This document shows positions 1,940 to 60,149 of a DNA stretch of 64,000 nt, in pieces. The notes beneath the pieces were generated by a model. It was not told the DNA's origin, ran no database searches, and was given only the letters and a program-made list of their open reading frames with translations. How positions within the stretch are numbered: the first letter of the stretch is position 1; every line of letters begins with the position of its first letter. This stretch comes from a virus, in the IMG/VR virus record IMGVR_UViG_3300020057_000027, positions 1 to 64,000 of that record. One strand, written 5' to 3'. Both the position numbers and the translations under genes were made by a program.

Positions 1940-3355
1940 ATGTCATTAAAAAGAAACACACTAAAAACTTTGAAGAGCATTCGCGAGAGTGCAGAATCGG
2001 ATCTTCCCACCCATGCTTCTGATGCTGGTGTAGAGATTCCTGATAGTGCTGAAAAGCGCGGAAATCGCGCAATTAAATCGGCGCTTAATGGTAAAGCAAT
2101 TGCTGATGCTTCCGGTAAAAAAGGCTCCGCTGCTGGTCGAGAGATTCCCGAAGAAGTAGAAGATGACGAGAAATTAGATGAAGGCGCAGACGAAGATCTT
2201 CCTACTCATGCTTCTGATGCCGCAGTACAAATTCCTGAGAAAAGAAAACTTCGTAAAGAAGACGATGACAAGATGGCTAAACTTAGAGCCATGAAAGAGG
2301 AAGACGAGGACAAGGAAGAACTTGACGAAGAGGAAGACGAGGACAAGAAAAAACTCGACGAAGACGAAGACAAGGAAGAACTTGACGAAGAGGAAGACGA
2401 GGACAAGATGGCTAAACTTAGAGCCATGAAAGAGTCCGATGAGTCTGACGAAGACGATCTTAAAGAGGAAGAGGACAAGGAAGAACTTGACGAAGAGGAA
2501 GACGAGGACAAGATGGCTAAACTTAGAGCCATGAAAGAGGAAGAAGAGGACAAGAAAGACGCAAAACTTTCTGAAGAAGAAGAAAAAGAACTTGAAGAAG
2601 AAGATGAAGAGGAACTTAAGAAGCACGTAGAGGCTCTTACTTCCGATGAAGATCTTCCTGAAAGTTTTAAGAAAAAGGCCGCAACAATTTTTGAGGCTGC
2701 TGTTAAAGCATCTGCAAAGAAGCGAACTGATCTTTTCCGCAAGAAACTTTCTGAAGTATACAAAAAGAAACTTAATAAAAGAAGTTCAAAAATCTCTGAG
2801 AAGTTAGTTGACAAAGTAGACGGTTATCTGGACTACGTTGTTGAAGAATGGATCAAAGAGAACGAAGTAGCGATTGAAACAGGTCTTAAAACACAGATAG
2901 TTGAAAAATTCATCGGTGGTCTAAAGAACTTGTTTGAAACTCACTACATTGAAGTGCCTGCGACTAAGACTGACGTTTTAGCTGAACAGGCCAACAAGAT
3001 TGATGGGTTAGAGAAAGAGTTAAATGAGTCTCTCAATAAAAATGTTGAGATTCGCAAAAGACTTATTTCTTTAGAAAAACAATCTGTCATTAAAAAGTTA
3101 TCTGCTGGTTTAACTGTCTCAGAGGCAGCTAAATTTTCAGAGCTTTGTGAAGGGGTATCGTTTGAAGATGCGAAAGCATTTTCTGGTAAGCTTGCTATCG
3201 TAAGAGAAACATACTTCCCAAAAACCTCTAAACGTTCAGGTGATTTAGATAGTGCGTTACTGACTGAAGGTGGACTACAAGAGCCAGAATCAAGAACATC
3301 AAAAGATGAGATTGATTTAGCTGTTGACACTATTTCGCGTATGGTGAAAAAATAA
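1940..3355 (+). CDS. 22: Prohead core scaffolding protein (gp22 family)
   Basis: A 471-residue protein whose C-terminal half (roughly residues 235-430) carries the T4 gp22 signature: KAATIFEAA, then V-D-G-Y-L-D-Y-V-V-E-E-W, then a long coiled coil. gp22 forms the internal scaffold on which the prohead shell assembles and is degraded by the gp21 protease. The N-terminal half is unusual: residues ~70-225 are almost pure Asp/Glu/Lys with repeated KMAKLRAMKE units, making the protein much longer than T4 gp22 (about 270 residues). An (I/L)xE protease site is visible at I-R-E (residues 14-16). It is followed directly by gp23, the T4 order. A late promoter (1887) and ribosome site precede it. Confidence 0.93.
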   Translation: MSLKRNTLKTLKSIRESAESDLPTHASDAGVEIPDSAEKRGNRAIKSALNGKAIADASGKKGSAAGREIPEEVEDDEKLDEGADEDLPTHASDAAVQIPEKRKLRKEDDDKMAKLRAMKEEDEDKEELDEEEDEDKKKLDEDEDKEELDEEEDEDKMAKLRAMKESDESDEDDLKEEEDKEELDEEEDEDKMAKLRAMKEEEEDKKDAKLSEEEEKELEEEDEEELKKHVEALTSDEDLPESFKKKAATIFEAAVKASAKKRTDLFRKKLSEVYKKKLNKRSSKISEKLVDKVDGYLDYVVEEWIKENEVAIETGLKTQIVEKFIGGLKNLFETHYIEVPATKTDVLAEQANKIDGLEKELNESLNKNVEIRKRLISLEKQSVIKKLSAGLTVSEAAKFSELCEGVSFEDAKAFSGKLAIVRETYFPKTSKRSGDLDSALLTEGGLQEPESRTSKDEIDLAVDTISRMVKK

Positions 3356-3411: not shown

Positions 3412-4713
3412 ATGTATCTCTCAGAAGAACTTCAAAAGAAATGGGACAAGATTCTTAATCATAAGGATCTCCCACAAATTAAGGATTCACACCGTCGAGC
3501 AGTATGTGCAGTACTGTTAGAAAACCAAGAACGCGACATGCGTGAGCAAGGAACATTCGGGCTTAATATGCTCGCAGAAGCCGCTCCTGCTAACGCCGCA
3601 CAAGGTTTTCCTAACAACAACGCAAACTTGAAGGGTTACGATCCAGTGCTAATTTCACTGATTCGTCGATCATTGCCTAATTTGATGGCATTTGACGTGT
3701 GTGGCGTACAGCCAATGAAAGCTCCAACCGGATTGATCTTCGCATTGAAGAGCAAGTACACATCGCAAGGTGGCGTAGAAGCACTTCATAATGAAGCAGA
3801 TACAGACTTTTCTGGCGACCCTGCATCGGTGCATTCAAATCCTCTTGACCCATTTGGTCCTCCAACTCGTGGCGAAGGTCTTTCGACTTCTGCTGCTGAG
3901 CGTCTTGGTGGCGGTGGAGTCGGTGATGGTGTGTTTGCTGAAATGGCATTCTCGATTGATAAAGTTTCTGTTGAAGCTAAGACTCGTGCCCTTAAAGCAG
4001 AGTACACAATGGAAATTGCTCAAGATTTGAAAGCTGTTCATGGTTTAGATGCTGAGTCTGAACTTGCTAACATTCTTTCTGCTGAAATCTTGGCTGAAAT
4101 CAATCGTGAAATCATTCGTACAATTTACATCTCTGCTGTGCCTGGTGCCCAACAAGATGTTTCTGTTGCTGGCGAATTCGATCTAGATGTAGATTCAAAT
4201 GGACGTTGGTCTGTTGAAAAGTACAAGGGTCTGATGGTTCAGATGGAACGCGATGCTAACGCAATTGCTAAAGAAACTCGTCGTGGTCGTGGTAACTTTG
4301 TTATCTGTGACTCCGATACGGCTTCTGCTCTTAGCGTTGCTGGTCTTCTTGATTGCGGTAGCGCATTGAAAGATAACCTAAACGTTGATGACACTGGCAA
4401 CACTTTTGTTGGTGTTCTTAATGGACGTTTCAAGGTATTCGTTGACCCTTATGCTCCTCTTACACAGAATTTCTATGTAATGGGATTCAAAGGAAGCAAT
4501 CAGTACGATGCTGGATTGTTCTATTGCCCATACGTTCCGCTTCAAATGTTGCGTGCCGTTGGTCAAGATTCATTCCAACCAAAAATTGGATTCAAGACCC
4601 GTTACGGTATTGTTGCTAATCCGTTCTCAAATCTTGCTGGAAATAGCAACGGTGCGATTACTGCTGGCACAAACGTATATTATCGGAAAATTCGTGTTCG
4701 GAACCTCCTCTAG
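3412..4713 (+). CDS. 23: Major capsid protein precursor (gp23)
   Basis: A 433-residue homologue of T4 gp23 (about 520 residues), the hexameric shell subunit. The conserved block L-I-R-R-S-L-P-N-L-M-A-F-D-V-C-G-V-Q-P-M (residues ~83-102) is diagnostic. A gp21 prohead-protease site fits L54-A55-E56 followed by A57, giving a mature protein of about 377 residues; this is shorter than T4's and suggests a reduced insertion domain. It starts at a strong AAGGAG site and is followed by an intrinsic terminator (4740-4769) and a GIY-YIG endonuclease gene. T4 also has a GIY-YIG gene, segD, next to 23. Confidence 0.95.
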   Translation: MYLSEELQKKWDKILNHKDLPQIKDSHRRAVCAVLLENQERDMREQGTFGLNMLAEAAPANAAQGFPNNNANLKGYDPVLISLIRRSLPNLMAFDVCGVQPMKAPTGLIFALKSKYTSQGGVEALHNEADTDFSGDPASVHSNPLDPFGPPTRGEGLSTSAAERLGGGGVGDGVFAEMAFSIDKVSVEAKTRALKAEYTMEIAQDLKAVHGLDAESELANILSAEILAEINREIIRTIYISAVPGAQQDVSVAGEFDLDVDSNGRWSVEKYKGLMVQMERDANAIAKETRRGRGNFVICDSDTASALSVAGLLDCGSALKDNLNVDDTGNTFVGVLNGRFKVFVDPYAPLTQNFYVMGFKGSNQYDAGLFYCPYVPLQMLRAVGQDSFQPKIGFKTRYGIVANPFSNLAGNSNGAITAGTNVYYRKIRVRNLL

Positions 4714-35260: not shown

Positions 35261-35603
35261 AATAAAAGAAAAATATAAAATCAAATATGATCCTAATGAT
35301 AAGGCTAGATGGTTTGTTCAGCTAACAGATCTAGCTGGAGTCTTTGCTGGCGTGATGTATGGTTATGGAGCATTTAGAATTAAAGAGCCAGAAAGTCCAG
35401 ATGGTAATTTGATGTTTAGTTTTGAACGAGATATTCTATACGTACCAGAAGGCCTGAAAGGTAAAGAGTTATCAGATGATCAAGAAAAAGAATTTACTAT
35501 ATTGCTTGGCTCAATACTATATGATATACTACAAGACAACCTCAATAAAGTTTCAGAACGAGGCGATAAGCTAGTCTTGGAGTTAGAGTCTAATGATAAA
35601 TGA
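35250..35603 (+). CDS. Hypothetical 117-aa protein (GTG start)
   Basis: A 117-residue protein starting at GTG 35250, which has an AGGAAA ribosome site. It has a central hydrophobic but not clearly membrane-spanning stretch (L-A-G-V-F-A-G-V-M-Y-G-Y-G) and an acidic C-terminal helix. It overlaps both neighbours by about 11 bases in the uvsX-41 operon. No domain is recognised. Confidence 0.5.
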   Translation: MTVEIKEKYKIKYDPNDKARWFVQLTDLAGVFAGVMYGYGAFRIKEPESPDGNLMFSFERDILYVPEGLKGKELSDDQEKEFTILLGSILYDILQDNLNKVSERGDKLVLELESNDK

Positions 35604-36951
35604 TAGAGTTGAAATATTAATCATAAAGAATTTATTCTTTAATGAACCATATACAAGAGAAGTTCTTCCTTTTATAATGCCTGAATATTTTTCTGATGAA
35701 GCTGAAAGAACGCTTGTCACAAAAATAAAAACCTTTATAACTAATTTCAATCATCTTCCTACTCGTGAAGCTATTATCATTCAGGTATCTAATGATACAA
35801 AACTATCACAACCAACAGAAGATAAAATTAGAGAGATTGTTTCTAATTTAAATAATGATGAGAAAAGTGATCCTAAATTCTTAATAGAAGAATCACAAAA
35901 GTTTTGCCAACAAAAAGCATTGGTAAATGCTGTATACAGTACAGTTGATATATTAGAAGACCCTAAGAAAGAGAAAGGTATAATTCCTAAACTACTTAGT
36001 GATGCACTTGCTGTATCCTTTGATCCGAGTGTTGGTCATAGTTATCTTGATGATGCTGATGCAAGATTTGAAACTTATCATAAAACAGAAGAGAAGTTTC
36101 CATTTGACCTATCATATTTTAATAAGATTACTAGGGGTGGTGTTCCAAGAAAGACTTTAAATGTTATTCTTGCTGGAACTGCTGTAGGTAAATCACTTGC
36201 AATGTGCCATATGGCAGGCTCATATTTAATGTCGGGCAAAGATGTTCTATACATTACACTTGAAATGGCACAAGAAAGAATAGCAGAACGTATTGATGCT
36301 AATCTATTGAACGTATCAATGCAGGATCTAGCATCATTACCTAAAGATCTTTATGATAAAAAGATTGCTGCTATTAAAAGTAAAACAGTTGGTAGATTTT
36401 TCATCAAAGAATATCCTACTGCCACAGCATCCGCAACAAACTTTAGAGCATTGTTAAATGAACTTGCATTAAAGAAATCTTTTAGACCTGATGTAATCTT
36501 TGTTGATTATCTGAACATCGCAACAAGTAGCCGACTAGGTAATAATCAAACGGTAAACTCATACACATATGTAAAGAGTATAGCAGAAGAACTTAGAGGT
36601 ATGGCAGTAGAGTTTAATGTTCCAATTTGGACTGCTACACAAACTAATCGCTGTCTAACATTAGATAGTAGCATTATAACTAAAAAAGGTACATTACCTT
36701 TAGGTGATATTAAAGTGGGAGATAGTGTGTTATCTGATGTTGGTTGGAATAATGTTTTGCGTGTGTATCCAATAGAAAAACAGAAAACATATCTTATCAA
36801 AACAAAGTCAGGTAAAACTATAAAATGTTCTGCTAGACATTTATTTCCTTCTAGCGGTGGTTTATTGTCTATTGATAGTGGTCTTAAAATCGGGGATGGT
36901 CTGCAAAACAGAGATGATAAAAAAAGTAATGAAAAATGGAATGTTTTTTGA
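35593..36951 (+). CDS. 41: Replicative helicase gp41 N-terminal part with N-intein
   Basis: A 452-residue protein: 353 residues of DnaB-like helicase followed by a 99-residue N-terminal half-intein. The helicase part has Walker A G-T-A-V-G-K-S (195-201), Y-I-T-L-E-M, and Walker B V-I-F-V-D-Y-L-N. It stops in T-A-T-Q-T-N-R, immediately followed by the intein Cys354. The C-terminal part of the helicase is in the next frame (36936). Joined exteins total 476 residues (T4 gp41 475), so nothing of the helicase is missing. gp41 is the hexameric 5'-3' fork helicase that works with primase gp61 (53058). Confidence 0.95.
   Translation: MINDRVEILIIKNLFFNEPYTREVLPFIMPEYFSDEAERTLVTKIKTFITNFNHLPTREAIIIQVSNDTKLSQPTEDKIREIVSNLNNDEKSDPKFLIEESQKFCQQKALVNAVYSTVDILEDPKKEKGIIPKLLSDALAVSFDPSVGHSYLDDADARFETYHKTEEKFPFDLSYFNKITRGGVPRKTLNVILAGTAVGKSLAMCHMAGSYLMSGKDVLYITLEMAQERIAERIDANLLNVSMQDLASLPKDLYDKKIAAIKSKTVGRFFIKEYPTATASATNFRALLNELALKKSFRPDVIFVDYLNIATSSRLGNNQTVNSYTYVKSIAEELRGMAVEFNVPIWTATQTNRCLTLDSSIITKKGTLPLGDIKVGDSVLSDVGWNNVLRVYPIEKQKTYLIKTKSGKTIKCSARHLFPSSGGLLSIDSGLKIGDGLQNRDDKKSNEKWNVF
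36652..36948 (+). other. Split intein, N half (gp41)
   Basis: Residues 354-452: CLTLDSSIITKKG (block A), L-P-L-G-D-I-K-V-G-D, T-I-K-C-S-A-R-H-L-F-P (block B with its His). No endonuclease domain is present. It ends at a TGA after T6. Layout and insertion point (N-R before Cys, Ser at +1) resemble the gp41-8 split intein known from aquatic metagenomes. Confidence 0.9.
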
Positions 36952-37073
36952 AAAAATGGATTTATATGTTTGATGAAATAGTAGAAATTGTTGAAATTGG
37001 ATACGAAGACGTTGTGGATATTGAAGTGTCCGGTAATAATTTATTTTATGCCAATGACATCTTAACGCATAAT
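36936..37073 (+). other. Split intein, C half (gp41)
   Basis: Residues 1-46 of the downstream gene: MECFLKKWIYMFDEIVEIVE..., then V-V-D-I-E-V-S-G-N-N-L-F-Y-A-N-D-I-L-T-H-N. Blocks F and G are intact, with terminal H-N and Ser at +1. Its length equals that of the gp41-8 C-intein, and it begins with its own Met, as expected for a true split intein. Confidence 0.9.
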
Positions 37074-37445
37074 TCAGGCTTTGTATCCACTGATATTGGA
37101 TTAGAAAACACCTCCGAGAGTTTTGGTTTACCGGCCACGGCAGATTTTATGGTTGCACTTTGGACTACAGAAGAGTTAGAAAAACTTGGACAAATAGTTG
37201 TAAAACAACTCAAAAACAGGTATAATGATGTAACAACATATAAAAAGTTTGTAGTTGGAATAGATCGATCTAAGATGAGATTATTTGATCTTGATGAAAG
37301 CGCACAAAAAGGTTTACAAGATTCTGGCACAGGCGATGACAAAGACGATGATGTTCCAGCATTTGATAAATCAAAATTTGGTAATGGGATGAAAGCAGAA
37401 AATAAAGTTTATGACAAGTCTAAATTCTCCGATGTTAATTTTTAG
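36936..37445 (+). CDS. 41: Replicative helicase gp41 C-terminal part with C-intein
   Basis: A 169-residue protein: a 46-residue C-terminal half-intein (ATG 36936) and 123 residues completing gp41, starting S-G-F-V-S-T-D and including V-K-Q-L-K-N-R-Y-N-D-V-T and V-G-I-D-R-S-K-M-R-L-F as in T4 gp41's end. The C-terminal ~50 residues are an acidic, Lys-rich tail. The frame overlaps the N part by 16 bases in the -1 frame, so expression probably depends on reinitiation. A second possible start is ATG 36966, which would shorten the C-intein to 36 residues. No strong ribosome site is visible. Confidence 0.93.
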   Translation: MECFLKKWIYMFDEIVEIVEIGYEDVVDIEVSGNNLFYANDILTHNSGFVSTDIGLENTSESFGLPATADFMVALWTTEELEKLGQIVVKQLKNRYNDVTTYKKFVVGIDRSKMRLFDLDESAQKGLQDSGTGDDKDDDVPAFDKSKFGNGMKAENKVYDKSKFSDVNF

Positions 37446-37983
37446 ATAACTTCTTTGCCATATATTTGTTAATATTTAATTGTCTACACGCCTCTCTAAT
37501 ACTTACATATTCTATATTGTTTATAGTAATTGGTTTTCTATTGGGTTGTAGCATTTGATTTCCTTTACTTTTGGATGATTTTTCTTTAAAAATTGTTTTT
37601 GTTTTTTTGGTATGTTTCTTTCCATAAAAGGGATTATTAATTCCTTTTCTTTGTTTACTTAATTTATCTTTCTGTTTTTGTGTCCAGCTTCTACCACAAG
37701 TTCCATCTCCACCTTCAGTTGAATTAAATCCACATTTGAATGTGTTGTATTTTTTAATATATTCTTTTTCCTTGTTTTTTGCTTCTATTTGTGTTAAACT
37801 ATCTTCTAATATGATAAAAGAAAATGAATCCCATCCATATTTGCCTATGGCATTAGATATGTGGGTATTGATGTGTTTATATGAATGTTTGTGCCAACAT
37901 TTTCTGGCTGTAGGATCTTTACTCAATCCTATATATTTACGTCCTGAAATAATATGTTCTAAACAATAGATAGACCAATTCAT
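37435..37983 (-). CDS. GIY-YIG homing endonuclease (only minus-strand gene)
   Basis: A 182-residue free-standing endonuclease on the opposite strand: I-Y-C-L-E-H-I-I-S-G-R-K-Y-I-G-L-S at residues ~5-21 is the GIY-YIG core, with E in K-E-K-E-Y-I-K-K. It is followed by a NUMOD3 repeat (K-G-I-N-N-P-F-Y-G-K-K-H-T) and a C-terminal helix-turn-helix segment (S-I-R-E-A-C-R-Q-L-N-I). It sits exactly between gp41 and dam: its stop overlaps the gp41 stop and its start codon abuts the dam ATG (CAT-ATG). Possibly it is the mobility factor of the adjacent split intein. Confidence 0.88.
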   Translation of the reverse strand: MNWSIYCLEHIISGRKYIGLSKDPTARKCWHKHSYKHINTHISNAIGKYGWDSFSFIILEDSLTQIEAKNKEKEYIKKYNTFKCGFNSTEGGDGTCGRSWTQKQKDKLSKQRKGINNPFYGKKHTKKTKTIFKEKSSKSKGNQMLQPNRKPITINNIEYVSIREACRQLNINKYMAKKLSKN

Positions 37984-38866: not shown

Positions 38867-38874
38867 GATAAATA
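38867..38874 (+). promoter_or_regulatory. Late promoter-like GATAAATA
   Basis: GATAAATATAA lies 39 bases before ATG 38906. It is the same variant as the gp23 promoter and fits late expression of the packaged-protein candidates that follow. Confidence 0.5.
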
Positions 38875-38905: not shown

Positions 38906-40126
38906 ATGATTACGTTTAAGAAATACATAACAGAAGCCGCAGAGGGTAAGAATACCCATCTTGAACACATAGAAGACGAAGTGTTCAATGGTGGTATTGC
39001 TGGCACACGTAAGGCGATTGCTTTCTTAATCAGTCTTAGAAAGATGTTAGCTGGACACGCTAAAAGCAAAGTCAACGTAACGGCCAAGTGGGATGGCTCT
39101 CCAGCCATTATCTGCGGAATCGCCCCTGAAAGCGGTAGGTTTTTTGTTGGTACTAAAAGTGTATTCAATAAAGACGGCAAGATCAATCACACAGTAGCAG
39201 ACATAGAAAGAAACCACACAGATCCGGTATTACGAGATAAACTTGCGATGTGTTTGCAGCATCTCCCTAAATTGGGTATTAAAGGTATTCTTCAGGGTGA
39301 TTTACTTTTCACTCAAGGTGACGTTAAAACAGTAGATATAGGCGGCGAATCACATCTAGCATTCAGACCTAATACTATCACATATACAGTACCGACCAAT
39401 AGTGAGCTAGCTAATACAATATCAGCAGCTAAACTTGGTATAGTGTTTCATACATCTTATACTGGACAAAGCATTCTCACATCCAAGGCATCGTTCGGTG
39501 TTGATTCATCAAAATTAAAATACACACCAGACGTTTGGGCTACTGATGCAACATTTAGAAACGTGTCAGGCACAGCAACATTAACTAAAGACGAAACAGA
39601 AGAAGTTACCGCCTTGTTGGTTGCCATCAAGCAACAATTTTCATCAATGGATTCTAAAGTGGTAAACTATATCGCATCAAATCTAAATCTAAGATCCCTA
39701 ATCAAAATGTATAGTAATAGTCAAATTAGAGTTGGTGTGGGTATCACAGGTAGCCAAGCATATGCAGCAGGTTTGGTGGATTTTATCGAGCAGCGATATA
39801 GAAAAGATGTGTCAACACTCAAGACGGAAAAAGGCAAAGCGGGAAAAGAACTAGTATTGAATGAACTTAAAGAACTGCTTCGTGAGCACTCAGATCAACT
39901 GATTTTAATGTTTAGTGTCGCACAACTAATTGCCGAAGCTAAGAGTTTATTAATAGCCAAACTTAAAACAGTTAAAAGTTTAGGCACGTTCTTAGAAACC
40001 CCCGATGGGTTTAAGGTGATATCCCCAGAAGGCTTTGTCGCTATCAATGCAAGTGGCTCGGCAGTCAAACTGGTTGACCGACTGGAGTTTTCTCGTAACA
40101 ACTTCAATCTAGCAAAAACGTGGTAA
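38906..40126 (+). CDS. Ligase-like nucleotidyltransferase with capsid-targeting peptide
   Basis: A 406-residue protein. Residues 1-10 (MITFKKYITE) followed by Ala match the T4 internal-protein targeting peptide (MKTYQEFIAE-A), which directs proteins into the prohead and is cut by gp21 after (I/L)xE. Residues 61-67, KWDGSPA, resemble motif I (K-x-D-G) of covalent nucleotidyltransferases such as DNA/RNA ligases; G-I-L-Q-G-D-L-L-F could be motif III. Homologues with the K-W-D-G-x-P-A block occur in T4-like phages without assigned function. The predicted activity is adenylylation of Lys61, with an unknown acceptor. No OB-fold domain is apparent. Confidence 0.6.
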   Translation: MITFKKYITEAAEGKNTHLEHIEDEVFNGGIAGTRKAIAFLISLRKMLAGHAKSKVNVTAKWDGSPAIICGIAPESGRFFVGTKSVFNKDGKINHTVADIERNHTDPVLRDKLAMCLQHLPKLGIKGILQGDLLFTQGDVKTVDIGGESHLAFRPNTITYTVPTNSELANTISAAKLGIVFHTSYTGQSILTSKASFGVDSSKLKYTPDVWATDATFRNVSGTATLTKDETEEVTALLVAIKQQFSSMDSKVVNYIASNLNLRSLIKMYSNSQIRVGVGITGSQAYAAGLVDFIEQRYRKDVSTLKTEKGKAGKELVLNELKELLREHSDQLILMFSVAQLIAEAKSLLIAKLKTVKSLGTFLETPDGFKVISPEGFVAINASGSAVKLVDRLEFSRNNFNLAKTW

Positions 40127-40127
40127 T

Positions 40128-40472
40128 ATGTACGAATATAAAGCAAAAGTATTAGAAGTAATAGACGGCGATACGATAGATGTTATTATTGATCTTGGTT
40201 TTGATGTTAAGTTCGTTTCAAGATTGCGTCTGTATGGTATTAATTGTCCAGAGAGTAGAACTAGAGACAAAGTAGAAAAAGTAAAAGGCCTAGCTGCCAA
40301 AGCAAGATTGAAAGCTCTTATACAAGATAAAGAAGTTGTAGTAAATACATTCAAAGATAAAGAAGAAAAGTTTGGTAGAATGTTAGCAAACATTACATTA
40401 GATGGTACACTTATTAATGATCAATTAATTGTTGAAGGTCACGCCGTAGCTTATTTTGGAGGCAAACGATAA
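40128..40472 (+). CDS. Staphylococcal-nuclease-like thermonuclease
   Basis: A 114-residue SNase-fold protein: V-I-D-G-D-T-I (residues ~10-16; metal-binding Asp), R-L-R-L-Y-G-I-N-C-P-E-S (catalytic Arg and Glu), K-F-G-R-M-L-A and the C-terminal E-G-H-A-V-A-Y-F-G-G. All key residues look intact. There is no signal peptide. It lies between two genes whose products carry the capsid-targeting peptide; its own N-terminus (MYEYKAKV) lacks it. It overlaps the next ATG by one base (TAATG). Confidence 0.88.
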   Translation: MYEYKAKVLEVIDGDTIDVIIDLGFDVKFVSRLRLYGINCPESRTRDKVEKVKGLAAKARLKALIQDKEVVVNTFKDKEEKFGRMLANITLDGTLINDQLIVEGHAVAYFGGKR

Positions 40473-40903
40473 TGAAAGCATTTACACAATATCTAAAAGA
40501 AGCTTCGGGTGATAAAGTTGGTGAGCCGCATACTCCACTTAAAGGACACACAGACGAAAAGACTGCATTTGTTGTTGATGATTATCCTTACGGATTTCAT
40601 GCAAGAACACAAATTAGATATTGGGTAGAATATAAGAAAGGTAAAGGTTGGAGATTTGTAGCTCAAACACTAGACCCAAAAAGACAAAGATGGAATAAAC
40701 CTAAAGCAGAAACCTACGTAGATTTTGGTGGGTTCATGTTTAAAGATGCTAAGGGTTTTGTTGGCTTCAAAGGACTTAGTCAATATTCAGATTTAGAAGA
40801 GCAAAAGCATTGGTTGCAACATTATAGAAACTATCTTGACAGTACGGGCATAGCAGTGATAGAATATATCATAAAGCGAAAGACTGAAATGGAAGCAAAA
40901 TGA
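40472..40903 (+). CDS. Putative packaged internal protein (143 aa)
   Basis: A 143-residue protein with the N-terminal peptide MKAFTQYLKE followed by Ala, a second match to the T4 internal-protein targeting and gp21 cleavage pattern. After cleavage, a 133-residue basic protein rich in Trp/Tyr (Y-P-Y-G-F-H-A-R-T-Q-I-R-Y-W-V-E-Y) would remain inside the capsid. I recognise this block from phage proteins of unknown role. Coupled to the nuclease gene by a one-base overlap. Confidence 0.55.
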   Translation: MKAFTQYLKEASGDKVGEPHTPLKGHTDEKTAFVVDDYPYGFHARTQIRYWVEYKKGKGWRFVAQTLDPKRQRWNKPKAETYVDFGGFMFKDAKGFVGFKGLSQYSDLEEQKHWLQHYRNYLDSTGIAVIEYIIKRKTEMEAK

Positions 40904-40945
40904 AAGCTAATCCACCCACACATACGATTAAACAATACGAATAAT

Positions 40946-41947
40946 ATGAAGACTCTTTCTGAAATACGACAAGCAAAGACTGCCGTATTTACCTTTGGTA
41001 GAATGAATCCGCCTACGGCAGGACATGAAAAACTCATTCGCAAAGTATTAGATGTTGCTCATTCTAAAGGTGCTGATCCTTTTGTGTACGTTTCTTTTAC
41101 ACAAGACCCATCAAAGAATCCATTAACAAACAAACAGAAAATTAAGTATATCAGACTTGGTGTTCCAGAAGCCGCTAAAGCAATTAAAGAAGACCCTAAA
41201 GTAAGAACACCATATCAAGCAATAACTAGATTAATTGAATTAGGTTATCAACATATTATAATGGTAGTTGGTGATGATAGAGTAAAACAATTTAGAAAAG
41301 AAATTACTCCATATGTTAATCATCCAGATAAGAAAAAATCATTTGAAATTGATAAGTTTGAAGTAGTATCAGCAGGAGAAAGAGATCCTGATGATGAGGG
41401 TGTGACAGGTATCAGTGGCACTAAGATGCGTGAAGCTGCCATTCATAACAAATATTCAAATTTTCGTCAAGGCGTTCCTTCTGGTTTAAGTGATCGTTTC
41501 TCAAGAGAAATGTTTGAGCTAGTTAAAAAAGGAATGAAGATCGCTGAATCAATACTACGAACACAAGGTAGTCTTAATATACCAAGAAATAAGATGCCTC
41601 AGATCATGCAAGATCATATTAAAGAGTTTATTAAAGAGTTAGAGAAAGAAGGTATTCCAGTTAGCATGAGAAGTGTTCCTATAAGCACGTTGAAACCTAC
41701 TCAGAAAGAAGTAAACAGCGAGAAGATTTTGAAAAAAATGGATGCATTAAGTTCAGGTGCTACTCCCAAGCCGTTCATTATATCAATAGACAATTTCGTT
41801 TTAGATGGGCATCATCAATTTTATGCTCTAAAAGAGTTAGATTCCAAGAGTAAAGTTGTAGCTTACATTGTTGGATTAAAAATGAATGAGCTATTAAAGT
41901 ATGCCCATGATTTTGATAAAGTTGGGTATAAAGAAATAGACGAATAA
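40946..41947 (+). CDS. Nucleotidyltransferase (NMNAT-like) fused to a ParB-like domain
   Basis: A 333-residue two-domain protein. The N-terminal half is a cytidylyl/adenylyltransferase: T-F-G-R-M-N-P-P-T-A-G-H (the HxGH equivalent is T-A-G-H), V-V-G-D-D-R and I-S-G-T-K-M-R near residue 155. The C-terminal ~100 residues (S-T-L-K-P-T-Q...D-N-F-V-L-D-G-H-H-Q-F-Y-A-L) fit a ParB/Srx-type fold, where D-G-H-H replaces the usual D-G-x-H/R-R. Phage NMNAT-like enzymes can rebuild NAD+; whether this one acts on NMN or another nucleotide is unknown. The fusion suggests a coupled ATPase/CTPase or nuclease-like module. Confidence 0.7.
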   Translation: MKTLSEIRQAKTAVFTFGRMNPPTAGHEKLIRKVLDVAHSKGADPFVYVSFTQDPSKNPLTNKQKIKYIRLGVPEAAKAIKEDPKVRTPYQAITRLIELGYQHIIMVVGDDRVKQFRKEITPYVNHPDKKKSFEIDKFEVVSAGERDPDDEGVTGISGTKMREAAIHNKYSNFRQGVPSGLSDRFSREMFELVKKGMKIAESILRTQGSLNIPRNKMPQIMQDHIKEFIKELEKEGIPVSMRSVPISTLKPTQKEVNSEKILKKMDALSSGATPKPFIISIDNFVLDGHHQFYALKELDSKSKVVAYIVGLKMNELLKYAHDFDKVGYKEIDE

Positions 41948-41958
41948 ATAGAGGTACT

Positions 41959-42504
41959 ATGAAGAAGTTTAAAGTTTATATAAAAGAATCCACTGGTGCT
42001 GTCAATCAGGTTGTTTGGCATGGTGCTGATAAAGGTTCTGCTATCATCATGGTTCCTAAACAAGATTTCAATAAAAATAGAGATCTTGCCACATTAAAAC
42101 TTTTAAAGGCCAAAGTTCCTAGAGCAAGAGCATTAACAAAATTCAAAGCAGATAGTAACTTGATTCGCCAAGCAGGCGGAGCAAACGAAGGTGAATATTA
42201 TTTGGTTCACGTAGACTTTACAACCAGAGAACTAAATGAAGCTGCCGATGAAGGTCCTCCATCATCTACTGAACTAGCTAAAGATAGACACGATAAAGAA
42301 AAAGACGATCTCAAAAGACGCCAAGATTTGGATAATGAAAAAGCTAGAGAGACAGATTTCAGAAAGAAAGAAGCAGACAGAAAACGTGAAACTCAAAAGA
42401 AAGACTCGGCCGCCCGATCTAAAAAAGTTAATGAGTATCTGGAAGATGGAACAGATGAGTTAGTATCCACATATAAGAAATATGTTCCAGGTCAGAATAA
42501 ATAA
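41959..42504 (+). CDS. Putative packaged internal protein (181 aa)
   Basis: A 181-residue protein starting MKKFKVYIKE-S, the third copy of the targeting-peptide pattern in this cluster, though with Ser rather than Ala after the cleavage Glu. Residues ~100-155 are an extremely charged helix (K-D-R-H-D-K-E-K-D-D-L-K-R-R-Q), a likely DNA-binding or coiled-coil segment. AGAGGT ribosome site. Probably cleaved by gp21 and ejected with DNA; no enzymatic motif seen. Confidence 0.55.
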   Translation: MKKFKVYIKESTGAVNQVVWHGADKGSAIIMVPKQDFNKNRDLATLKLLKAKVPRARALTKFKADSNLIRQAGGANEGEYYLVHVDFTTRELNEAADEGPPSSTELAKDRHDKEKDDLKRRQDLDNEKARETDFRKKEADRKRETQKKDSAARSKKVNEYLEDGTDELVSTYKKYVPGQNK

Positions 42505-43930: not shown

Positions 43931-44995
43931 ATGTTTAAGAATCTTCCAAAAGACTTGATTGATGCCGCCTCAGGTATCATGAAAGAAAGTTCTAACAATC
44001 GTTCAAAGTCATATCGTAAGCTTGTTAAGGAAGCTCTTAAAGCTTTTAAAGTAAAATCAATCACACAGTTAAGCGAATCAGAACAACATCTTTTTGCTAC
44101 TTGGGTAGCCAATCGTTTAGATGAAGCTTGTGGTTGTGGTTACTCAGAAGAAAGTGATGACGAATTGCTACACAAGAAAGCTGCCGTAGATGCTCAGTCA
44201 GGACTTCCCGAATTAGGCGAAGAAGACGAAAAAGAATTAGACGAAGAGGAAGACGAAGAAGATAAGTTAGAAGAATCCGATGATTCTGATGAAGACGATC
44301 TTAAAGAAGAAGACGAAGAAGATAAACTTGAAGAAGAGGAAGATGATGAAAGAATTGATGGCCCTGCCTCGGCCAAGAAAAATGCTCCACTTCCTGGTGC
44401 TGCTCTTAGTTCATTAACCGCTGGCGATGATAGCGATGAATTAAAAGACAAAGATGAACTAGAGGAAGAAGAGGAAGATAAAGATCTAAACGAATCATTC
44501 AAAGTTGGTGATGTTGTTTATGTTAAAACTGGTCCACTAAAAAACTATCCGCATAAAATTATATACGACAACAAAAACGGATCATATAATGTTGTAGCTC
44601 CTGGAGCTCCGAACAGATTAAATTACCGCCAAGGCGCTGCATCTGCTAAAGCTTCTGAGTTATCAAGTAAACTAATCAAAGAAGATTATTGTTCTCCTGA
44701 ACCTCTTGCGGCCATCGGTGCAAGATCTGGATTAGAAAACCCAAAACACGTTGACATTATTAAAGATATTGATGTTGTGTCTGGTATTAATACTTATAGA
44801 CTATTAATTAATTATGTAAATGGCCGCCCAGAGATTATACCTTCTGTAGATCTTCCTGGAGCTCCTTCGGTTGAAGCATTAGCTGATCTTGTTTCTGGTT
44901 TTGAAGATGTTGATGGTGTAATTAGTCAGGCGATAGCCGACGCACTTGATGTGCCTTCTGAAAGACCAGTTTACAGAGGCAATGATAAAACTTAA
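43931..44995 (+). CDS. Acidic core-like virion protein
   Basis: A 354-residue protein. Residues ~72-185 are Asp/Glu/Lys-rich with units such as D-D-S-D-E-D-D-L-K-E-E, almost the same as a unit in gp22 (D-E-S-D-E-D-D-L-K-E-E). The N-terminal 60 residues are helical, and residues ~187-220 (V-G-D-V-V-Y-V-K-T-G-P-L-K-N-Y) look like a small KOW/SH3-type barrel. A prohead core or internal head protein is inferred from the shared acidic repeat and late-type context. Confidence 0.5.
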   Translation: MFKNLPKDLIDAASGIMKESSNNRSKSYRKLVKEALKAFKVKSITQLSESEQHLFATWVANRLDEACGCGYSEESDDELLHKKAAVDAQSGLPELGEEDEKELDEEEDEEDKLEESDDSDEDDLKEEDEEDKLEEEEDDERIDGPASAKKNAPLPGAALSSLTAGDDSDELKDKDELEEEEEDKDLNESFKVGDVVYVKTGPLKNYPHKIIYDNKNGSYNVVAPGAPNRLNYRQGAASAKASELSSKLIKEDYCSPEPLAAIGARSGLENPKHVDIIKDIDVVSGINTYRLLINYVNGRPEIIPSVDLPGAPSVEALADLVSGFEDVDGVISQAIADALDVPSERPVYRGNDKT

Positions 44996-45007: not shown

Positions 45008-45562
45008 ATGAAAAGTTTAAAAGACTTTATTGTAGGTAAAGAACTTCCTGCCATATATCTTGATATGGACGAGACAATAGTAGATTGGTATCAAGGGGCC
45101 GACGCCGCGCTAGAAAAGTTTGGTTATCCAAAATGGACACATGAATTTTGGAAACAGTATACTAATGACGGAGCAGATGCAATCAGATGGGCGGTTCTTA
45201 ATAAGATACCACATTTTTGGATTAACCTTAAATGGATGAAAGACGGTAAGAAACTCTGGGAGTTTGTTAAACCATATAAACCCAATATTTTGAGCGCATA
45301 TTCAGATTATTCTCCTACAAGCATTCCAGAGAAGCAACAATGGATAGCAAAGAATCTTGGACTAAATAACCTTAGCAATGTTCATTTTGTTGGTCGTAAA
45401 GATAAGAAGAAATATGCGGTAGCCGCAAACGGTAATCCTAATCTTTTGATTGACGATTATGATAAAAATTGTAATGAATTTAGAAGTAGTGGTGGCATAG
45501 CAATTCAAGTCACCAATGTTTCGGAAGTTATAAGTAAATTAAAAAGTCTTGGATTTAAATAG
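45008..45562 (+). CDS. HAD-family hydrolase, nucleotidase-like
   Basis: A 184-residue HAD phosphatase. Motif I is D-M-D-E-T (D19, D21), with S-A-Y-S as motif II, a Lys in the G-R-K-D-K-K-K-Y region (motif III) and L-I-D-D-Y motif IV. Overall length and the L-D-M-D-E-T-I-V-D-W start resemble 5'(3')-deoxyribonucleotidases of phages. It would dephosphorylate nucleotides, or a related phosphorylated metabolite. Its N-terminus (MKSLKDFIVGKE) only loosely resembles the capsid-targeting peptide. Confidence 0.8.
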   Translation: MKSLKDFIVGKELPAIYLDMDETIVDWYQGADAALEKFGYPKWTHEFWKQYTNDGADAIRWAVLNKIPHFWINLKWMKDGKKLWEFVKPYKPNILSAYSDYSPTSIPEKQQWIAKNLGLNNLSNVHFVGRKDKKKYAVAANGNPNLLIDDYDKNCNEFRSSGGIAIQVTNVSEVISKLKSLGFK

Positions 45563-57515: not shown

Positions 57516-60149
57516 ATGCAGAATCTTCCCTCCTTGTATCAGGAATTCATCCATCTTTCACGCTATTCAAGATGGGTGCCAGAAGAAAAGCGAAGAGAGA
57601 CATGGGAAGAAACAGTAAAAAGATATTTTACATTCTTTGAAGTTCATCTTAAAGAACGCACAGGTTACGAATTAAAAAAATCTGATCGTAGCGAATTAGA
57701 AAAAGCAATTTTGGAATTAAAAGTGATGCCTTCAATGCGGTGTCTAATGACAGCAGGAGAAGCATTGAAGAGAGATGAAGCTGCCGGATATAATTGTTCA
57801 TTCATAGCAATAGACAATCCAAGATCATTTGATGAAATACTTTATATTTTAAGCTGTGGAACAGGAGTAGGTTTTTCCGTTGAAAGACAGTATGTTAGCC
57901 AACTACCTGTAATTGCTGAATCGTTCTATGGGACGGATAGCACAATAGTAGTACAAGATAGCAGAATAGGGTGGGCTAAAGCTCTTAAAGAGCTTCTAGG
58001 GTTGTTATATCAGGGTCAGATACCACAGATAGACACTAGCAAGGTAAGACCGGCAGGAGCGGTCCTAAAGACCTTTGGAGGTCGTGCTAGTGGTCCCCAG
58101 CCGCTAATAGAGCTATTTAACTTCTGTATACGAGTTTTTCGTAGTGCTAGTGGTCGTAAGTTGCAGTCTATAGAATGTCACGATATTGTATGCAAGATCG
58201 CGGAGGTTATCGTGGTGGGCGGCGTGAGACGTTCTGCCCTTATCTCATTGAGTAATCTATCAGATGATAGAATGAGAAATGCTAAATCAGGACAATGGTG
58301 GGTTGAAAATGTTCAAAGAGCTTTGGCTAATAATTCTGCTTGTTATACTGAAAAGCCTGATGTTGCTGTTTTCATGGATGAGTGGAAATCTCTTTATGAA
58401 TCTCGTAGCGGTGAGAGAGGAATATTCAATCTTGTTGCTGCGAAGAAATCAGCAGAAGCAGGAGGCAGAAGAGATCCTTTAAAAGTTGCTGGAACAAATC
58501 CGTGTGTTCCGGGGGACACAAGAATATTAACTAAAGACGGCTATGTTGAAATTGCCAAAACGGTCGGTAAAGAAGTGGAAATTTGGAATGGGCTTGAGTG
58601 GTCGGTAGTAAGGCCATTTAGCACAGGCATCAACGACTTGATGGAAATAACATTTTCAGATGGTAGTAATTTAAAATGTACTCCGTATCACAAATTTGTT
58701 TTAGATGATGGGAGAACAAAAAGCAAGATAGTCAAAAGGAAGGAAAAAAGGGTCGAAGCAAAAGATCTAAAACTTAACGACCGACTATTTAAATATAATA
58801 TGCCCGCCGTCAAGTTGTCTGATGCAATAGATCCGACAATCGATGCTTACTCGCAAGGATTTTATTCTGGTGATGGGTGTAGTGATAATACATCCTCATA
58901 TCTATATGAAACAAAATATTCATGCGAACCCCGCCTAAAAGGCAATTTTGGAAAACTTGAATCTAATAGAAAACGATGGGTGCATGGGGCGATGTTGCCA
59001 AAAACGTTTGTTCCGTTAAATTCGTCTTTGGTATATTGTCTAAATTGGTTTGCTGGTTTGTGTGATTCTGATGGTACTGTGACGAGAGATATTAACAGTT
59101 CCGGTATACAGATTTGTTCGGTCGACCTTGAGTTTCTTAAAGATACAAAATTAATGCTGTCGAGATTATCAGTAAAAGCTAAAATTGTCGATGGTAGAGA
59201 AGAAGGCACTTATACTATCGCTACAGGCACGTATGTTTGCAAAAAACAATACCGCATATTAGTTGGTAACGCCGACACGGCAAAATTAATCTCGTTGGGG
59301 TTAAAAACGGAAAGATTAGTATTTGATAAAATTAAACCACAAAGAGATGCGCGACGTTTTATTACCGTGGTTGCTGTGAAAAACTTAGACAAAAAACAAG
59401 AAACTTTTTGCTTTACGGAGCCAAAAAATAATACAGGGACCTTTGAGGGTATAGTAACAGGGCAGTGTGCCGAGATACTCTTGCGTAATCGAGGCTTTTG
59501 TAACTTATCTGAAGTAGTAGTAAGAGCAGATGACACAAAAGAAAGTTTATTAAAAAAAGTTGAGTTGGCAACAATATTAGGAACGTTTCAATCAACGCTA
59601 ACTAAGTTCCGATATCTTACTAAAGATTGGGAAAAAAATGCAGAAGAAGAAAGATTACTTGGCGTTTCTTTAACTGGCATATTAGATAATGAATTTTTAT
59701 CTACTCCAAGTCCAGAATTACAAACGTTTTTAGAAGAATTAAAAGATCACGCAATTAAAGTAAATAAAAAATGGGCCACAAAATTGGGCATTCCACAATC
59801 TGTGGCAATTACTTGCGTGAAGCCTAGTGGATGTCAAAGTTTGTCGAATAAAATTAAAACCAATTTGGGTGTTCTTTCCTTCGAGGAAATTTTGGATCTA
59901 TGTAAAGTTAAAACTACATTTGCCGACACATGGCATCCCGTAAATATAGACTTATCGGTATTTGATGAAAATAACGAATCGCAGAAGGTTACAAAACTTT
60001 TCATCAACGGAGAGGCTTTGGTGCATGAAATTGAGTTTGAAGATGGCACCACGGCAAAATTCACGTCAAACCATAAACTTTTAACAAAAGATCGTGGTTA
60101 TGTCAGAGTTGACGAATTAAAACCAGAAGATGATATAGTTTCTTTTTAA
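57516..60149 (+). CDS. nrdJ: Class II ribonucleotide reductase NrdJ, N-terminal part, with inteins
   Basis: An 877-residue precursor: extein 1 (1-329), intein 1 (330-650), extein 2 (651-772) and a split-intein N half (773-877). The extein is a monomeric B12-dependent reductase: A-G-Y-N-C-S-F-I, S-C-G-T-G-V-G-F-S and, after splicing, N-P-C-A-E-I containing the thiyl-radical Cys, then C-V-K-P-S-G. The rest is at 60228. Joined exteins are 636 residues, within the range of phage NrdJ. It makes dNTPs from NTPs without oxygen, needs adenosylcobalamin, and feeds replication with ThyX and dUTPase. No nrdB-like gene is seen. Confidence 0.93.
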   Translation: MQNLPSLYQEFIHLSRYSRWVPEEKRRETWEETVKRYFTFFEVHLKERTGYELKKSDRSELEKAILELKVMPSMRCLMTAGEALKRDEAAGYNCSFIAIDNPRSFDEILYILSCGTGVGFSVERQYVSQLPVIAESFYGTDSTIVVQDSRIGWAKALKELLGLLYQGQIPQIDTSKVRPAGAVLKTFGGRASGPQPLIELFNFCIRVFRSASGRKLQSIECHDIVCKIAEVIVVGGVRRSALISLSNLSDDRMRNAKSGQWWVENVQRALANNSACYTEKPDVAVFMDEWKSLYESRSGERGIFNLVAAKKSAEAGGRRDPLKVAGTNPCVPGDTRILTKDGYVEIAKTVGKEVEIWNGLEWSVVRPFSTGINDLMEITFSDGSNLKCTPYHKFVLDDGRTKSKIVKRKEKRVEAKDLKLNDRLFKYNMPAVKLSDAIDPTIDAYSQGFYSGDGCSDNTSSYLYETKYSCEPRLKGNFGKLESNRKRWVHGAMLPKTFVPLNSSLVYCLNWFAGLCDSDGTVTRDINSSGIQICSVDLEFLKDTKLMLSRLSVKAKIVDGREEGTYTIATGTYVCKKQYRILVGNADTAKLISLGLKTERLVFDKIKPQRDARRFITVVAVKNLDKKQETFCFTEPKNNTGTFEGIVTGQCAEILLRNRGFCNLSEVVVRADDTKESLLKKVELATILGTFQSTLTKFRYLTKDWEKNAEEERLLGVSLTGILDNEFLSTPSPELQTFLEELKDHAIKVNKKWATKLGIPQSVAITCVKPSGCQSLSNKIKTNLGVLSFEEILDLCKVKTTFADTWHPVNIDLSVFDENNESQKVTKLFINGEALVHEIEFEDGTTAKFTSNHKLLTKDRGYVRVDELKPEDDIVSF
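58503..59465 (+). other. Intein 1 in NrdJ, with LAGLIDADG endonuclease
   Basis: Residues 330-650: starts CVPGDTRILTKDG, has S-Q-G-F-Y-S-G-D-G and F-A-G-L-C-D-S-D-G as endonuclease helices, and ends I-V-T-G-Q. The final residue is Gln and the penultimate is Gly, not the usual His-Asn. The +1 residue is the reductase's catalytic Cys. Confidence 0.9.
59832..60146 (+). other. Split intein, N half (NrdJ intein 2)
   Basis: Residues 773-877: starts CQSLSNKIKTNLG after K-P-S-G, has block B (T-A-K-F-T-S-N-H-K-L-L-T-K-D-R-G-Y-V-R-V-D-E-L) and ends at a stop. No endonuclease domain. It resembles N halves of NrdJ/NrdA split inteins from aquatic metagenomes. Confidence 0.9.

Follow-up and report, generated by a model that had tools for sequence, protein, structure and literature searches.

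A T4-type capsid targeting sequence on several unrelated proteins of a marine T4-like phage and its predicted role in packaging

Background

Phage T4 carries a set of internal proteins in its head, IPI, IPII, IPIII and Alt, which have a ten-residue N-terminal capsid targeting sequence (CTS), are processed by the protease gp21 and are ejected. IPI inhibits a restriction enzyme, and there is one host on which T4 requires IPIII. Mutagenesis of IPIII has shown that positions 4 and 7 of the CTS control targeting and that positions 8 and 10 control processing (PMC9026906). Here we analyze a stretch of 64,000 nucleotides (the window), the first 64 kb of the 164,106-base virus record IMGVR_UViG_3300020057_000027, in which three genes, named by their start positions 38906, 40472 and 41959, encode proteins whose N-termini have the same key CTS positions. 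As in T4, the partners gp21, gp22 and gp23 are present and small variable proteins are among the tagged set. Unlike in T4, the tag in this group of phages is also found on large conserved proteins, one of them with a predicted ligase-like fold, in an island between the gp41 helicase and gp61 primase genes; the T4 IPII and IPIII genes are located elsewhere, and T4 gene 61.1 is at the place equivalent to the island. The novelty of the locus is an island of CTS-tagged enzymes, a variant of the T4 internal proteins.

Two further described systems resemble this one in part. Cyanophage virions contain a cytidylyltransferase/NMNAT (T4-GC190) of the same family as the product of 40946, usually encoded in the same island and beginning with a CTS or CTS-type leader. 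Unlike those cyanophages, this phage tags its DUF6267 protein (38906) and neighbours and leaves 40946 untagged. Polyvalent proteins (PMC5512222) share the idea of injected conflict proteins, and a ParB-like domain is present in the 40946 protein as well as in one homologue that bears a CTS. Polyvalent proteins are giant multidomain polypeptides, whereas the proteins described here are small and separate, each with its own CTS; when checked as polyvalent proteins, each gave one family match or none.

Five proteins with a T4-type CTS

The N-termini are MITFKKYITE/A for 38906, MKAFTQYLKE/A for 40472 and MKKFKVYIKE/S for 41959 (the slash marks the expected cut). All three have Phe4 and Tyr7, and all three carry a predicted gp21 processing signature of Ile or Leu at position 8, Glu at position 10 and a small residue at position 11 (ITE/A, LKE/A and IKE/S). 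The pattern M-x-x-F-x-x-Y-[IL]-x-E-[AS] given for them in a preliminary description of this DNA is located as claimed, and the likeness that it saw to T4 MKTYQEFIAE-A, the identical N-terminus of IPII and IPIII, holds at positions 4, 7, 8 and 10. A scan of the whole 164 kb record for more such N-termini, which the same description had proposed, added two genes and brought the total to five: 71484 (MKSFYQYITE/S) and 73301 (MKTLKTYITE/V), at record positions 71484-72353 and 73301-73951 (L002 7484-8353 and 9301-9951), outside the gp41-gp61 island.

The scan used the rule M-x-x-[FYL]-x-x-[FYW]-[ILVM]-x-E, whose positions were taken from the T4 IPIII mapping (PMC9026906) and not from this genome, and tested it at the first Met of each of the genes called in a set of eight genomes. 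Matches were found for 14 of 1785 genes: five in this phage, three in T4 (only IPII, IPIII and gene 61.1) and zero to two in each other genome. If the motif occurred at the N-termini as often as in the rest of these proteins, 0.10 matches would be expected in this phage. Column-preserving shuffles gave an expectation of 0.18 and a maximum of three matches among 5000, none reaching four, and the 680 internal Met positions of its proteins gave no match. Beyond the tag, no significant similarity was found when the five proteins were compared with each other. One of the nearest relatives found, the uncultivated phage G001 (167.8 kb, with homologues for 119 of the 231 called genes), keeps the tag on its homologues of 38906 (MRNFKQHLAE), 41959 (MVKSFKNYISE/E) and 71484 (MIRSFKQFLRE, at an internal start). 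G001 and this phage share only the tag and the C-terminal half of 41959, the middle not being kept, so the tag has outlived its neighbourhood.

Since the head-address tag of T4 is present on several unrelated proteins, of which two or more are apparently enzymes of nucleic acids, the tagged proteins probably travel in the particle and enter the host along with the DNA. We hold it to be quite probable that the five are internal head proteins that would be synthesized late in infection, docked on the core of gp22 scaffold by the ten-residue CTS, cleaved behind Glu10 by the gp21-type protease, retained in the head with the DNA and ejected into the host at infection, after which they may act early on nucleic acids or nucleotides. 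Packaging in this phage is likely. The steps through docking are supported by the sequence evidence together with homologues in virions, and cleavage is supported by the site and the likeness to T4, while ejection and function are what we infer. Given the entry roles of IPI and IPIII in T4, an entry-phase role would be the most likely one, and the proteins may be ejected effectors that act on host nucleic acids or defences.

Head partners and a late-promoter motif

The record encodes the T4-type replication genes UvsX, gp41 helicase and gp61 primase, and its head genes include a gp22-like scaffold, gp23, the portal and a gp21-type protease. A nucleotide search of the region against annotated phage records found no close relative. 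Apart from G001, the nearest relatives found are the cultured methylophage Melnitz-3 and the pelagiphage HTVC008M, both classed in the Kyanoviridae; Melnitz-3 has a CTS on its DUF6267 protein and on the product of the preceding gene. The virus is a marine T4-like phage of bacteria. The L-x-E site at its gp23 N-terminus (Table 1) is also aligned in other marine phages. Window positions 43931-44995 encode a very acidic protein with gp22-scaffold-like repeats and several [LIVM]-x-E-[AGS] sites, which is possibly a second prohead core protein.

The motif upstream of 38906 has the form NATAAATA, described for cyanomyoviruses as their late promoter (PMC2984593). Of the 33 copies of ATAAATA in this genome, 17 lie 20-90 bases upstream of plus-strand genes, a positional count that exceeds that of every one of 21 letter permutations, and the genes preceded by the element include gp22, gp23, sheath, tube and baseplate genes. 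The positional signal is in the NATAAATA form; the form TATAAATA, with T first, was rejected as a promoter form, its matches in the window being fewer than chance. Another copy of NATAAATA precedes 41959 by 16 bases; at this short distance from the ATG it is unlikely to be a promoter, and it was not counted.

Virion proteins of related cyanophages

Cytidylyltransferase/NMNAT proteins have been detected by mass spectrometry in the virions of S-SM1 (PMC3037559), S-SCSM1 (PMC9602691), S-CREM2 (PMC10665884) and S-SZBM1 (PMC9146016). These virion proteins begin with MKKFSAFLNE/A in S-SM1, MKSFLQFLKE/A in S-SCSM1, MKNFSSFLTE/A in S-CREM2 and, one residue short, MRFRQFIIE/A in S-SZBM1. For S-SCSM1 the annotation lists most products of the island as virion proteins. 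S-CREM2 ORF156, which is a virion protein too (PMC10665884), is a Pol-beta-type nucleotidyltransferase and a distant relative of 71484. The untagged DUF6267 protein of S-SZBM1 is absent from the 30 virion proteins of that phage (PMC9146016). These published data fit the reading of the tag as a module. We found no mention of a CTS in the accessible portions of these four papers, and a literature search of 5.4 million open papers on capsid targeting and cyanophages yielded only a T4 review, so the link between CTS and cyanophages appears to be unreported within the open-access literature. The preliminary description proposed packaging by means of a T4-type CTS that gp21 cuts, and this is well supported by the specific motif, the gp21, gp22 and gp23 partners, the late-promoter motif and the published virion mass spectrometry of homologues of the neighbouring gene 40946, with CTS-type leaders, in four cyanophages.

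Several points weigh against packaging and ejection. The virion data come from relatives, in which no close homologue of the five CTS proteins is proven in virions; S-CREM2 ORF156 is only distantly related to 71484 and has no strict CTS. In the 40946 protein of this phage, whose homologues are the ones proven in virions, the CTS is lost or degraded. Two of the proteome papers allow for carry-over in CsCl preparations (PMC10665884, PMC9602691), and for ejection and function the argument is by analogy with T4.

The CTS island and the mobility of the tag

The interval between gp41 and gp61 holds 135 of the 1785 genes in the eight genomes and nine of the 14 CTS genes (hypergeometric P 9e-8). Among the 628 distinct genes near DUF6267 in IMG/VR, roughly 76 have a potential start that satisfies the strict CTS rule, with up to four tagged genes per contig, and DUF6267 itself is tagged in 28 of 61 loci under a slightly looser rule. 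The other tagged proteins there are cytidylyltransferases, P-loop kinases with zeta-toxin/AAA_33 matches, a ParB-like protein, an HAD protein weakly matching a PHROGs polynucleotide kinase (PNK) family, and several unknowns. Some DUF6267 proteins, of a cyanophage type that starts MSKNTHLEH, have no tag, and several such cyanophages tag the cytidylyltransferase instead. Since the tag is present on varying proteins, and an untagged DUF6267 protein may accompany a tagged cytidylyltransferase, the CTS behaves as a portable module on different, mostly unrelated proteins across marine T4-like phages, chiefly in the gp41-gp61 island.

A 59% identical relative of the orphan 73301 (L166 2900-3253) is similar from residue 10 onward only and has no obvious CTS leader just upstream of the matching part, which is what gain and loss of the tag as a module would produce. 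T4 gene 61.1 (MKTFKEFIKE/D) falls inside the gp41-gp61 interval of T4; it is uncharacterized, encodes 54 amino acids and lies between gp61 and gp41 (NC_000866 18966-19130). It may be an overlooked T4 internal protein at the place of the marine island. Other leaders, MTRYxKTM[SA]EA and MNxxDLPDMSDA, recur on island proteins of the relatives (L008 10591, L007 16851, L009 7056 and L171 1262). One family related to proteins with these variant leaders is among the annotated virion proteins of S-SCSM1, and the variants may also be head-targeting signals.

Predicted ligase fold of the DUF6267 protein

DUF6267 is present in 467 phage records. The residues invariant in 48 of its sequences are K61-x-D63-G64, G131-D132, E375-G376 and K388, which we take to be ligase motifs I, III, IV and V in order and type. 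An AlphaFold2 model of the protein has a predicted local distance difference test (pLDDT) score of 82.6, with residues 1-17 disordered. All 50 matches listed by VIA-align for the model are RNA or DNA ligases, the best being a Naegleria RNA ligase (Z 8.6, 184 residues aligned, root-mean-square deviation 3.8). Foldseek found no significant match for the model in the PDB, hhalign against 15 T4 Rnl2-type sequences gave a probability of 0.1%, that is, no profile similarity, and a profile search of PDB sequences returned only weak coiled-coil-type matches. The ligase reading therefore rests on the fold alignment and the invariant motifs. In a Pfam scan of the 48 members, no ligase model was among the families listed.

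DUF6267 thus has the invariant KxDG, EG and K of the RNA/DNA ligase (covalent nucleotidyltransferase) superfamily in ligase order and, unlike RNA/DNA ligases, a large helical insertion and no similarity to the T4 Rnl2 profile. It is best read as a probable ligase-fold covalent nucleotidyltransferase and a candidate member of the superfamily. A fusion of DUF6267 with a cytidylyltransferase is indicated by a 591-amino-acid S-PM2 protein in BFVD and also by phrog_455; the latter is insufficient as lone proof. In ACG-2014i the two genes only overlap.

Alternative explanations

The resemblance of the N-termini could be due to convergence, or to an effect of translation start or of a lysine-rich leader, and not to a targeting signal. 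MK starts are indeed common in AT-rich phages, and the same island has leaders without the motif (40946 and 42579). However, the shuffles, which preserve the MK bias, never gave more than three matches in 5000, the conserved positions are exactly those mapped in T4 (PMC9026906), the same rule applied to T4 picks the internal proteins plus 61.1, and the CTS of 41959 was kept while the adjoining sequence diverged from that of G001. An origin of this kind is very improbable. The CTS proteins could also be prohead core proteins with a morphogenetic role in head assembly, like gp67, gp68 and partly IPIII, and do nothing in the newly infected host. In favour of this, the CTS directs proteins to the scaffold core, T4 IPIII mutants show head-assembly effects (PMC9026906), and 41959 is short, highly charged and core-protein-like. 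Against such a role, DUF6267 and the NMNAT-like, MNT-like, P-loop kinase and HAD proteins have conserved enzyme motifs or folds that scaffolding does not need, and the tagged set, unlike core morphogenesis genes, differs between phages. A purely morphogenetic function is quite unlikely.

Packaging could instead serve metabolism, with the enzymes adjusting the pools of nucleotides or NAD in the first phase of infection, as the cyanophage proteome authors propose for NMNAT. The cytidylyltransferase/NMNAT is the recurrent virion enzyme, and its fusion with DUF6267 appears to exist in S-PM2 as well as in phrog_455. DUF6267, on the other hand, resembles nucleic-acid ligases rather than NAD enzymes, the NMNAT-like protein of this phage is without a full CTS, and the few copies that would be injected would probably fit a targeted strike better than bulk metabolism. 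We consider a metabolic purpose unlikely and prefer delivery of the tagged proteins to act at entry. From the enzyme types (the ligase-fold DUF6267 and the MNT-like nucleotidyltransferase), a nucleic-acid or nucleotide chemistry of this cargo is plausible.

Other genes of the region

The coordinates of the features in the window are given in Table 1. The preliminary description had noted a thermonuclease and a nucleotidyltransferase interleaved with the tagged genes. Both are there, but on this evidence neither counts as packaged: the thermonuclease 40128 was rejected as cargo because it has no CTS, and 40946, which lacks Ile or Leu at position 8 and Glu10, has at most a degenerate one. Many homologues of 40946 carry a full CTS, and the G001 homologue of 45008 has a complete one (MTKTFKQFIVE/E).

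Table 1. Features of the CTS region and of its head partners, in window positions
Feature	Position	Strand	Basis or remark
gp22-type head scaffold, expected CTS receptor	1940..3355	+	several [LIVM]-x-E-[AGS] sites
gp23 major capsid protein	3412..4713	+	N-terminal site MLAE/AAP aligned with T4 gp23 FLTE/AE
GATAAATA, T4/cyanophage-type late promoter motif (NATAAATA)	38867..38874	+	39 bases upstream of the 38906 ATG
CTS codons (MITFKKYITE) of the DUF6267 protein	38906..38935	+	cut expected before Ala11
DUF6267 protein (PF19782), 406 aa, probable ligase-fold nucleotidyltransferase	38906..40126	+	invariant motifs, fold alignment
Thermonuclease-like (SNase, PF00565) protein	40128..40472	+	no CTS
CTS protein MKAFTQYLKE/A, 143 aa, orphan	40472..40903	+	N-terminal motif
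Cytidylyltransferase/NMNAT-like protein with ParB-like C-terminal domain	40946..41947	+	N-terminus MKTLSEIRQAK
CTS protein MKKFKVYIKE/S, 181 aa, charged C-terminal half	41959..42504	+	N-terminal motif
HAD 5'-deoxyribonucleotidase-like protein, CTS-like N-terminus MKSLKDFIVG/K	45008..45562	+	Glu10 replaced by Gly

For 40472, 41959, 71484 and 73301 there was no match among the phage records and few or none in IMG/VR; 40472 has no relative among phages, plasmids and IMG/VR except on a contig identical to this virus. Of these four, 40472, 41959 and 73301 can be called orphans or near-orphans. The 71484 protein has Gly-Ser at positions 63-64 and D75-x-D77, a G-S ... D-x-D motif conserved with G001, and a homologue matches PF01909 (NTP_transf_2) over the cut-off. 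VIA-align matched it to MNT-type nucleotidyltransferases with Z 9.1 on a poor model (pLDDT 52.7), a match used only jointly with the Pfam match of the homologue. It is predicted from these to be an MNT-like nucleotidyltransferase.

Intein-like sequences were also observed. At window positions 35593-37445 two open reading frames with intein-like ends (...CLTLDSSIITKKGTLPLGDIKVGDSV... and ...DIEVSGNNLFYANDILTHNS...) share the gp41-type helicase between them, which is how known gp41 split inteins are arranged; after them comes a GIY-YIG-like open reading frame on the minus strand (37435-37983). Intein-like insertions also seem to interrupt the ribonucleotide reductase (window 57516-60149), near the end of which a second intein may start, and the portal protein (record position 153587-155695).

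Conclusions

It is possible, if doubtful, that the heads of marine T4-like phages contain a ready-made, interchangeable kit of CTS-tagged enzymes for nucleic-acid repair or nucleotidyl transfer. Entering together with the genome, it would restore cleaved tRNA or DNA, or undo nucleotide-based immunity, ahead of any phage gene expression. The members of such a kit would be the ligase-fold DUF6267, a P-loop (zeta/PNK-like) kinase, an HAD phosphatase that is weakly PNKP-like, and the NMNAT-like and MNT-like nucleotidyltransferases. The CTS offers a cause for the repeated finding of NMNAT/cytidylyltransferase in cyanophage virions, which its authors leave undecided between cargo and contamination; packaging by the CTS would explain why an unexpected enzyme recurs in the particles of related cyanophages. 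DUF6267 is pointed toward a testable ligase-type activity, and the sequence rule yields a prediction of the proteins that ocean phages of a widespread group may carry into their hosts.

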